A stretch of DNA of 38,105 bases from Chthoniobacteraceae bacterium. GTDB taxonomy: Bacteria; Verrucomicrobiota; Verrucomicrobiia; Chthoniobacterales; Chthoniobacteraceae. The translations under genes were made by a program, and so were the position numbers. The notes below the pieces were generated by a model. It saw only the letters and a program-made list of their open reading frames with translations, made no database searches and was not told the DNA's origin. The stretch lies in assembly GCA_947471505.1 (NCBI GenBank), contig CANIWM010000059.1, forward strand, positions 1 to 38,105, written 5' to 3'. Of this stretch, positions 14,675-38,105 are shown piece after piece (the stretch's first letter is position 1; each line of letters opens with the position of its first letter).

Positions 14675-16003
14675 TTAGCGTTTCGTTCCGCCGACAGTCG
14701 TGGTGGTCGTCGTCGGTGGGACTGGCGGCGGCGGTGGGACGAGTGTGCCGGCTTCGATAGCGGCGTGTACGGCGGCTTGTTCGGCTGGTTCGAGGATGTT
14801 GTTATTGTTCACGTCGAACGGCTTGAGCCATGTCGGCAATGCGGGCGGCGGTGGTGGGGTGCCTCCTCCTGTGGTTCCTCCCGGTGGGACGAGTGTGCCA
14901 GCGGCGATGGCGGCCTGCACGGCTGCGGCTTCGGAGGCATCGAGGACGTTGTTGTGATTGAGGTCAAACGGCACGAGCCACGTTGGGAGCGTTGGCGGTG
15001 GTGGCGGGGTGGCTCCGTTTGGTGGCACGACGACTCCGCTGGTGATGTCGGCGCGTAGGGCGGCGCATTCGACTGGGTCGAGGATGCCGTTGTTATCCAC
15101 GTCATACGGCTTTACCCATTCGGGCAGCGCGGGCGGGACGACGGTCGGCGGGACGACGGTGCCGGCGTGGATAGCAGCTTGCAGAGCGTCGTTCTCGGCT
15201 TGTTCGAGGATATTGTTGTGATTGAGGTCGAACGGGCGCATCCACGTTGGAAGCTCTGGTGGGCGCGGTGTGGGGAGGACGAGCGTCCCGGCAGTGATGG
15301 CGGCTTTGACGGCGGCGATTTCGGTCGCGTCGAGGTGCCCATCGTTGTTCACGTCGAACGGCTTGAGCAAGTCGGGCAAGTGCCCGGCATGGCCTGCGGG
15401 CGTTAGTTTGCCGCTTTCGATGTCGGCTTTCACGGCGGCCAGTTCGGTGGCGTTGAGTTTTCCGTCGCCGTCCAAATCGTAGGGCTTCAACTGGTCGGGT
15501 AGCGTGGCGTGGAAGCCGAGCGGCGGCACGAGTTTGCCTTCTTTGATGGCTTTGCGGGCGGCTGTCCGCTCAGCGAGGCTCAGGCGTCCATCGCTGTTGA
15601 GATCGAATTGTTTCAGCGCGTCCGGGAGCTTGCCGTCGAAGTTTGGCAACTCGACCTCTCCATCGTGGAGCGCGGCGCGGAGTGCGCGGACTTCATCGGG
15701 GCCGAGTTTTCCGTTGCCGTCGGTATCGAATTTTTTGAGGTCTTCGGGCAATGGGAAGACGGGCGCTGGCGGCGGCGGGAATTTCCCGGCTTCGACATCG
15801 GCCTTCCAAGCGGCGCGTTCGGTGTCGTCGATCGTGCCGTCTTTATCGGCGTCATAATGACCACGGACTGCGGCGAAGTAATTGCACACTTTGGCGACTT
15901 GGCCATCGGTGGGCACTGTGGATGTTGTGCGTTTCGCGGCGTGAGCCTGCGTGGCGAGCCCGGCTGCGGCGATTGCTGCGACGAGGATTGGTGTTCGTTT
16001 CAT
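14675..16003 (-). CDS. secreted protein with nine EF-hand-type calcium loops
   Basis: The 442-residue product has a signal peptide cut after AHA (about residue 22), which sets the start at 16003 rather than 16090. Nine 12-residue EF-hand loops follow at roughly 40-45-residue spacing. The first five are canonical (DADKDGTIDDTE, DTDGNGKLGPDE, DLNSDGRLSLAE, DLDGDGKLNATE, DVNNDGHLDATE). Of the last four, three have Asn instead of Gly at position 6 (DLNHNNILEQAE, DLNHNNVLDASE, DVNNNNILEPAE). Each unit carries one loop, a short helix (AAVKAAI...AGTLVPP) and a Pro-rich linker; linkers grow toward the C terminus, which ends in a Thr run. No catalytic domain is seen. It is probably a calcium-stiffened periplasmic or surface protein. 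Confidence 0.85.
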   Translation of the reverse strand: MKRTPILVAAIAAAGLATQAHAAKRTTSTVPTDGQVAKVCNYFAAVRGHYDADKDGTIDDTERAAWKADVEAGKFPPPPAPVFPLPEDLKKFDTDGNGKLGPDEVRALRAALHDGEVELPNFDGKLPDALKQFDLNSDGRLSLAERTAARKAIKEGKLVPPLGFHATLPDQLKPYDLDGDGKLNATELAAVKADIESGKLTPAGHAGHLPDLLKPFDVNNDGHLDATEIAAVKAAITAGTLVLPTPRPPELPTWMRPFDLNHNNILEQAENDALQAAIHAGTVVPPTVVPPALPEWVKPYDVDNNGILDPVECAALRADITSGVVVPPNGATPPPPPTLPTWLVPFDLNHNNVLDASEAAAVQAAIAAGTLVPPGGTTGGGTPPPPPALPTWLKPFDVNNNNILEPAEQAAVHAAIEAGTLVPPPPPVPPTTTTTTVGGTKR

Positions 16004-36052: not shown

Positions 36053-37099
36053 TCAGTGCCCCAGCGTCTGCCGGAGTTGCTTCGCGATCTCGACGAATGC
36101 CTGCCCGATCACGCCATCTGGCTCGGCGGCGGTGATGGGCTTGCCTCGGTCGCCGCTTTCGCGTGTCGGGATGTCGATCGGGATTTGGCCGAGGAGCGGG
36201 ATTTTCTGCCGCGCAGCCTCGCGCTCTCCTCCGCCGCTGCCGAAAATATCGTAGCGCACGCCGTCGCTCGGGCACTGGAAGTACGCCATGTTCTCGATGA
36301 TGCCGAGCACGGGCACGTTCACCTTCTGGAACATCGTGACGGCTTTCCGCGCGTCGAGCAGCGCGACCTCTTGCGGCGTGGTGACGATGATTGCGCCTGC
36401 CAGCGCGACCGTCTGCACGATGGTGAGCTGGATGTCGCCGGTGCCGGGCGGCAGGTCGAGGATGAGGAAGTCCGTGCCGTCCCAATTTACCTGCCGGAGA
36501 AATTGCTGGGTGTACTTCGTCACCATAGGCCCGCGCAGGATGGCGGGCGCATCGTCTTCGAGCAGGAAGCCCATGCTCATCAGCTTCAAGCCGTAACGCT
36601 CGATGGGGATGATGCGGTTATCCTCATCCGCAAAAGGCCGCTCGTTCGCGCCGAACATGATGCCCACACTCGGGCCGTAAAGGTCGCAGTCGCACAGCCC
36701 CACGGAGGCTCCCGTCGCGGCAAGGGCGCAGGCGAGATTGGCGGCGACGGTGCTCTTCCCCACGCCGCCTTTTCCGCTGGCGACGGCGATGATGTGCTTC
36801 ACGCCGGGCACGGCAGTTTGCGGCATGGACTGCGCGCCCATCGGCTGCTGCTGCGGCGCGGTGATGTCGATGCGCACGGAGGCACTCGTCACCCCCGGCA
36901 TCGCGGCGAGCGCGGCTTCGGCGTTCGCTTTGATCATCTTCGGCACCGTGGCATCCGCCGTGGACATGCTCATCTGCACGACGACTTCGGTGCCCGTGAT
37001 GCGGATGTCTTTCACCAAGCCAAAGCTGACGATGTCGCGGCTGAAGCCGGGATATTTGACCGTGGTGAGTTGTTGGCGAATGGAGTCGGTAGTAAGCAT
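36053..37099 (-). CDS. mrp: Mrp/ApbC-type P-loop iron-sulfur cluster carrier
   Basis: The 348-residue protein has an N-terminal MIP18/DUF59 domain (about 1-80), a linker rich in Gln/Pro, and a ParA-like ATPase with Walker A GKGGVGKST near residue 108. It continues with CDCDLYGPSVGIMFG, PAILRGPMV, LILDLPPGTGD and ENMAYFQCPSDG. Family members carry or insert Fe-S clusters. In many, the last motif is CPxC, with both cysteines binding a bridging cluster; here the second cysteine is Asp (Cys276-Pro-Ser-Asp). It is probably a functional ATPase with altered or absent cluster binding at that site. No iron-sulfur operon is adjacent. Confidence 0.9.
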   Translation of the reverse strand: MLTTDSIRQQLTTVKYPGFSRDIVSFGLVKDIRITGTEVVVQMSMSTADATVPKMIKANAEAALAAMPGVTSASVRIDITAPQQQPMGAQSMPQTAVPGVKHIIAVASGKGGVGKSTVAANLACALAATGASVGLCDCDLYGPSVGIMFGANERPFADEDNRIIPIERYGLKLMSMGFLLEDDAPAILRGPMVTKYTQQFLRQVNWDGTDFLILDLPPGTGDIQLTIVQTVALAGAIIVTTPQEVALLDARKAVTMFQKVNVPVLGIIENMAYFQCPSDGVRYDIFGSGGGEREAARQKIPLLGQIPIDIPTRESGDRGKPITAAEPDGVIGQAFVEIAKQLRQTLGH

Positions 37100-37166
37100 G
37101 GCAAAAAAAACGAGGGGCCGGAGGGAAGCGGGCTACCGCGCGGCTGGCAAGCGCCGTTCAGCAAGA

Positions 37167-37259
37167 TTACTTCGCCAGCACTCGCAGGTTCACGCACGCC
37201 GCTTCGTTCGTGCTGCGCACAAAGACGAGGCCGTTGCTGGTGGCGGGCGTCCCGTCGTG
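37167..37259 (-). pseudogene. C-terminal remnant of a PQQ-like beta-propeller protein
   Basis: In one leftward frame the sequence reads HDGTPATSNGLVFVRSTNEA, then ACVNLRVLAK and stop TAA (37169-37167). That is how many PQQ-like or BamB-like propellers end (last blade strand with a Cys-x-x-L pattern). No start or upstream blade is present; the frame is lost upstream, where another frame is open. Best seen as debris between mrp and the minisatellite. From 37260 to 37539 I see no gene. Confidence 0.35.
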
Positions 37260-37539
37260 CCGTCGAGGAAACAGAGGCAGGCGAAAAATGGGGAATCTTC
37301 CGGCTTCATGGTGCGTCGTTTTTCTTTTTCATCGCCGGACCCGCTTCTCACGCTTTCCACTCGGAGTATCCCATCGCAAAGGTTGGCCTTGGGCATCGGT
37401 GCCGTTCCAGGTGAGTGGTTGCTGTGGCATGGGCGTTTTTGGGTTGTGGAAGTGGTCGTCGGAGCCGTGCAGGCGGTCTTCGGGCTGGCGGAGGCGGGCA
37501 TTTCCGGGCGGGAAAGGCCCGTTTCCTCTGTAGAGGCGG

Positions 37540-37791
37540 TTTTTTGGGCGGCTGACAAAACCTTCTCAGTGGCTGAGAGAGTCTTGTCCGTCACGGAAAA
37601 GGTCTTCTCAGCCATTGAGAAGGTCGTCTCAGCGACGGAGAGAGTTTTGTCCGTCACTGAAAAGGTCGTCTCAGCCCCTGAGAGAGTTTTTTCCGCCACG
37701 GAAAAGGTCTTCTCAGCGACGGAAAAGGTCTTCTCAGCTACGGAGAGAGTTTTCTCCGCCACGGAAAAGGTTACCTCCGTGACCGAGAAGG
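37540..37791. repeat. 21-bp minisatellite, eleven intact units, each nearly self-complementary
   Basis: From 37561 to 37791 there are eleven consecutive units of exactly 21 bases, for example TCTTCTCAGCGACGGAAAAG plus one G; a degenerate twelfth precedes at 37540-37560. Units vary mostly in the middle, and ends alternate between GAGAGAG and GAAAAGG. Neighbouring unit edges pair with each other (CTTCTCA with TGAGAAG around GCCAT), so the array can fold into serial hairpins. Because 21 is divisible by three and the units are near palindromes, both strands are open: plus gives EKVFSAT repeats, minus gives AEKTFSV repeats. A minus frame 37906-37190 spans it, but no ribosome binding site or family supports it, so I do not call a gene. 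Confidence 0.8.
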
Positions 37792-37961
37792 TTGCATCAA
37801 CCGCTCCCTTCACCACCTCGCCCCCCGCGAAATGCCCCGACGCCCCTGCGCTCCGAAGCGAAGCGCGTGCGGCGGTTTTTGTCTGGCTTGAAAAGGCGGA
37901 GTTCATTTCAACGGTTGGAAGCTGGCGGACGGAAAGAACCGCGTCAGATTAGCCGATTCAA

Positions 37962-38105
37962 CCTAAAAACGGCAGTTGACCCCGTTTTTGAGGCCGAAAA
38001 ATAGGGTATTTTACTCTGGAAATTGCCAACTGCGGAGCAGTTGAAAATCACTCACCCGTCCAAGGCTCATTTTTCTCTGAAAATCCGTTCAACTGCCGTT
38101 TTTAG
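37962..38105. repeat. MITE-like repeat with terminal inverted repeats, right copy
   Basis: Perfect copy, same orientation, of bases 1-144. The window ends exactly at the last base shared with the left copy, so the base expected to complete the 18-bp inverted repeat lies outside. Flanking DNA on its left (37920-37961) does not continue the secreted-protein gene that the left copy interrupts. Confidence 0.8.

Follow-up and report, generated by a model that had tools for sequence, protein, structure and literature searches.

A 21-bp minisatellite of constant period and free sequence in a Chthoniobacteraceae genome, one of many unlike arrays and very probably non-coding

Close to one end of a Chthoniobacteraceae contig, near-palindromic units of 21 bp follow one another and leave a reading frame open on each strand, which raises the question of whether the tract is a gene, a structured RNA, a slip-prone tract or an array that matters as DNA. 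The window analysed here is the whole stretch of 38,105 nucleotides that forms contig C59 of a 6.07-Mb draft genome (G000). The features around the tract are as follows.

37554..37805, no strand assigned: 21-bp minisatellite of 12 rows, the last degenerate, in which the unit types GAGAGAGTTTTNTCCGCCACG and GAAAAGGTCTTCTCAGCNACG alternate
37496..37553, plus strand: conserved array edge, TTTCCGGGCG..CTCTGTAGARGCG..TTTT, also seen at arrays C2 and C50 within G000 and in congeners G006 and G009
37806..37953, no strand assigned: downstream flank, common to array C2 and without codon constraint
36053..37099, minus strand: Mrp/NBP35-type P-loop NTPase gene of 348 aa, the nearest gene to the array

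The register of the array is unbroken from 37554 to about 37805, with zero indels. TRF returned period 21 over 37581-37793 together with higher-order periods of 63 and 105, and a repeat search found nine 105-nt copies, each offset by exactly 21. The initial annotation, which had counted eleven units at 37540-37791, thus described a real array and was right to within one unit, about twelve being present at 37554-37805. The units are near-palindromic around two centres. The edge is approximately in the same 21-bp register, and its sequence YCTCTGTAGARGCGNNNTTTT is confined to the host genus in a pattern search of 57 genomes. The Mrp-type gene starts about 455 bp away. One open frame crosses the array on each strand, encoding EKVFSAT repeats on the plus strand (ORF 36738-37952) and AEKTFSV repeats on the minus strand (ORF 37190-37906); the likeness of the two heptapeptides is, as the initial annotation correctly explained, an automatic outcome of self-complementarity in a length that is a multiple of three.

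At each end of the contig, over its first 144 bases and at 37962-38105, lies a 143-bp element bounded by 26-bp terminal inverted repeats, CTAAAAACGGCAGTTGA..., of which the genome has at least 40 virtually identical copies. These lie mostly at contig ends, so that the element is probably a young MITE-like repeat which broke the assembly. Elsewhere in the window, a 150-bp tandem duplication (14732-15016; 1.9 copies, 75% matches) is overlapped by a 471-aa minus-strand ORF.

Three relatives of the array, C2, C65 and C50, occur in the same genome. The nearest, C2, is 68% identical and has the leader and the downstream flank in common with the window array, the flank being about 89% identical over 37791-37953. 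C50 has orthologs with matching flanking sequences in G006 and G009. The 21-bp period is held in C2, C65, C50 and the genus-mates despite strong divergence, and the unit counts of orthologous arrays differ by whole units, which supports the suggestion that the tract is slip-prone. Indels of 1 bp were seen in the sister arrays of G009 and C65. The orientation of the units flips half-way through the C50 array (L054:7087-7334), so that the two halves form an imperfect inverted repeat, its arms about 83 nt long and separated by 5 nt. In the congener G001, several contigs (L092, L093, L094, L095, L096 and L097) terminate inside 21-bp arrays; both the number and the length of arrays are therefore probably underestimated from short-read bins.

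The relatives also bear on whether either open frame is translated. C2 contains two stops in the candidate plus frame and four in the candidate minus frame. The flank common to the window array and C2 has 4 synonymous against 12 non-synonymous changes in the candidate plus frame, as in neutral sequence. In C50 and its orthologs the synonymous fraction is 0.07-0.47 in all six frames, compared to 0.84 in the adjacent M29 peptidase gene, and thus codon-level selection is seen in none of the frames. Synonymous excess was not general among 68 arrays (median p 0.37); seven reached p<=0.05, part of them in stop-containing frames, and 56 independent units showed no excess of 3-bp periodicity over random genomic 21-mers. 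Given the stops in C2, the neutral flank and the sister-locus orthologs without codon constraint, coding on either strand was rejected and the window array is very probably non-coding; a young repetitive protein gene, one of the possibilities raised initially, is disfavoured. One observation favours translation of the window array, whose plus frame has a synonymous fraction of 0.71, reached by 0 of 100 column permutations, with variable columns favouring third positions; it is weak, since this is one of 68 arrays tested. Pfam matches to both heptapeptide ORFs all fell under the curated cut-offs, and LbR_Ice_bind at 5.8e-5 was judged a repeat artefact.

Similar arrays elsewhere in the genome were looked for by scanning 1.19 Mb of G000 for all periods between 10 and 60, in whole stretches of contigs that were not selected for arrays except C40, whose array was known beforehand. 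Of the 29 tandem arrays found, 17 have period 21 or 42, a density of about 14 per Mb that extrapolates to about 85 per genome. The units of these 17 arrays are mutually unrelated as judged by eye. A member of another family, G037, has 5 arrays in 0.22 Mb, and G008 of the same genus has 0 in 0.40 Mb, where about 5.7 would be expected at the G000 rate. Comparison with phage or plasmid sequences gave no match, and such an origin was rejected.

A few arrays sit within genes, namely alaS and a fused uvrA-like gene. In alaS, G000 has a 42/21-bp array in the linker and G003 an unrelated 21-bp array in the same linker, which indicates that the period recurs without the sequence; the G006, G001 and G009 linkers that were read have none. 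The G000 alaS gene (contig C1, L174:14549-18199) also contains an insertion that preserves the reading frame and encodes a Y1-transposase (RAYT-like) domain, matched to Pfam Y1_Tnp at E 7.5e-4, under the curated cut-off. The fused double UvrA of 1978 aa (L222:3814-9750) holds its 21-bp array in the linker joining its halves.

The initial annotation had placed the tract outside the usual repeat classes, and this proved wrong. Many bacterial groups are known to carry tandem repeats whose size is constant (20-21 or 52 nt) and whose sequence varies; their function is not established, and 20-21 nt was remarked to equal two helix turns (Subirana & Messeguer, PMC8161180). The arrays of the window genome match this class in their period of 20-21, their many loci per genome, their unlike sequences across loci, their mostly non-coding and patchy occurrence among species and the proposed link to two helix turns. 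The unit size is kept through divergence, and differing units occur at many loci (17 in 1.19 Mb). A further criterion of the class is a short characteristic sequence common to most repeats within a species; to the eye, the units of G000 are unrelated. On the matching properties, the window array is filed as a variant of these published repeats.

A CRISPR array was rejected, since the units abut head to tail and spacers are absent. REP/BIME elements are short imperfect intergenic palindromes, sometimes in tandem, and REPs have a genome-wide common sequence with a GTAG/CGTC tag and depend on a RAYT, which moves the palindrome family. The arrays here are likewise short imperfect palindromes in tandem, but only their period is common to them; REP/BIME was rejected as units are unrelated across loci and the GTAG tag is absent from the window units.

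The hairpin potential of the window array is above chance, as had been proposed, with fold z-scores of -6.5 (plus) and -9.1 (minus) against dinucleotide shuffles. Under a stricter null, in which the 21 columns were permuted identically in every unit so that repetition was preserved, the scores were -3.7 and -4.3. Across the 68 arrays the mean fold z against this null was -2.0 to -2.9 with both strands alike; about half of the arrays beat it, and about half are without significant dyad excess. A set of 56 mutually unrelated units, compared to random genomic 21-mers, gave a palindrome score z of 6.2, and the unit consists of a purine-rich half against a pyrimidine-rich half (first purine harmonic, z 7.7). 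In the same comparison no excess was seen at the 10.5-bp harmonic (k=2). Arm covariation within units is absent, arm changes being uncompensated; between units it is weak in the window array (p 0.04) and stronger in C2, where it is confounded by the alternating unit types. Arm covariation was therefore rejected as proof of hairpins. Together, the dyad excess, the purine and pyrimidine halves, the strand-equal folding and the lack of within-unit arm covariation point to a DNA-level property rather than to a particular RNA.

Taken on these grounds, we incline, at somewhat better than even confidence, to the view that the window array is a non-coding minisatellite, one of about 85 in the genome, whose sequence drifts and of which only the 21-bp period and a tendency towards dyad symmetry persist. 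The best reading places the array at the DNA level, its period coming from helix geometry or from a copying mechanism with 21-bp steps and not from codons. Such arrays may be born through local tandem duplication and be homogenised through slippage or unequal recombination. A length of 21 bp would be favoured as two turns of B-DNA, a proposal resting on the match of numbers, and each unit would then show the same helix face; the most likely reader of that repeated face would be a putative dimer- or filament-forming protein that lies along the DNA with little base specificity. The initial suggestion of a protein-binding array may hold. The preferred reading is weakened by the missing 10.5-bp excess, by the half of the arrays that are without dyad excess, by the uncompensated arm changes and by the third-position bias of the window array in the plus frame.

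The strongest rival is a purely mutational origin, in which duplication by the replication or repair machinery proceeds in 21-bp steps, more easily at quasi-palindromes, and functionless arrays persist wherever they are tolerated. We regard this as possible although on balance unlikely. It is consistent with the arbitrary unit sequence, with arrays in the tolerant linkers of alaS and the uvrA-like gene, with the unrelated arrays at the same alaS site and with densities as unequal among congeners as those of G000 and G008. Tolerance alone, however, hardly explains where arrays lie relative to one gene family, which was reached via the relatives of the array. This FN3-like family is multicopy and its proteins of about 210 aa combine a long helix with an FN3 fold. 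A profile scan of public genomes returned 41 loci; Verrucomicrobiota account for most of them and bins labelled Acidobacteria/Blastocatellia for some. The best period within 900 bp upstream of the gene, scored at identity thresholds of 0.5 and 0.6, was exactly 21 at 45 of 52 FN3-like loci (identity >=0.5), in comparison with 4% of random windows from the same genome and, among 68 windows lying distal or downstream at FN3-like loci, 2. At identity >=0.6 the corresponding figures were 37 of 52 (71%), 22 of 3000 random windows (0.7%) and 0 of 68. The Fisher p for the upstream enrichment is 7e-58, which overstates independence because the paralogs are related. In a bin deposited as Klebsiella pneumoniae (L165), a 21-bp array also precedes an FN3-like gene; this bin is probably mislabelled or contaminated.

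A more specific proposal is that FN3-like proteins, or genes travelling with them, recognise or create DNA of 21-bp step irrespective of its sequence and thus form a geometry-reading chromosomal system. We put this forward tentatively, as an improbable reading. It is supported by the upstream arrays and by G008, which lacks FN3-like genes as well as arrays in 0.40 Mb, a co-occurrence across genomes that rests on very few genomes. In the converse direction, 1 of the 17 sampled G000 arrays adjoins an FN3-like gene, and no such gene lies beside the window array. FN3-like paralogs are 58-77% identical, yet the arrays facing them are unrelated in sequence, and in one paralog set a conserved 75-bp stretch ahead of the start codon adjoins an array of unrelated sequence. 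Plasmid iterons and partition arrays are likewise tandem, with binding sites at intervals of about 20-22 bp (or 11 bp), and frequently lie upstream of their binder's gene; they keep a conserved binding sequence, unlike the arrays that FN3-like paralogs face. The RNA repeats of type III toxin-antitoxin systems were rejected, as the nearest gene to the window array is Mrp and what the gene-linked arrays face is a protein of FN3 fold, not a ToxN-like endoribonuclease.

We consider it improbable that the array is transcribed as a structured RNA leader whose serial hairpins serve as attenuator, stabiliser or protein sponge. The fold scores of the window array would suit such a leader, as would the position of the arrays, which end a median of about 140-210 bp ahead of FN3-like start codons, with the conserved 75-bp leader between in one paralog set. 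Equal folding of the strands, the many arrays without extra structure, the location of some arrays inside genes and the lack of within-unit arm covariation argue against it. Rfam matches were spurious, mostly to eukaryotic microRNA models, with no family near its gathering score. The structured RNA initially suggested is thus unsupported past self-complementarity. It is very improbable that the plus-strand EKVFSAT frame is a heptapeptide-repeat protein gene, for its openness and synonymous bias, the latter from one of 68 arrays, are met by the stops in C2, the neutral flank, and sister arrays that have 1-bp indels and lack codon constraint.

In the passages of PMC8161180 considered here, Verrucomicrobiota, dyad symmetry, purine and pyrimidine halves, a link to FN3-like genes and unrelated arrays recurring at one site, as in alaS here, are not mentioned. 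Relative to those passages, the dyad excess and the purine and pyrimidine halves over 56 units, the FN3-like gene link and the unrelated alaS arrays are new. Repeats of constant size and variable sequence have been known for years without a function or a partner, and the FN3-like family together with the alaS linker brings two questions within reach of a test: what determines the 21-bp step, and whether it has a reader.
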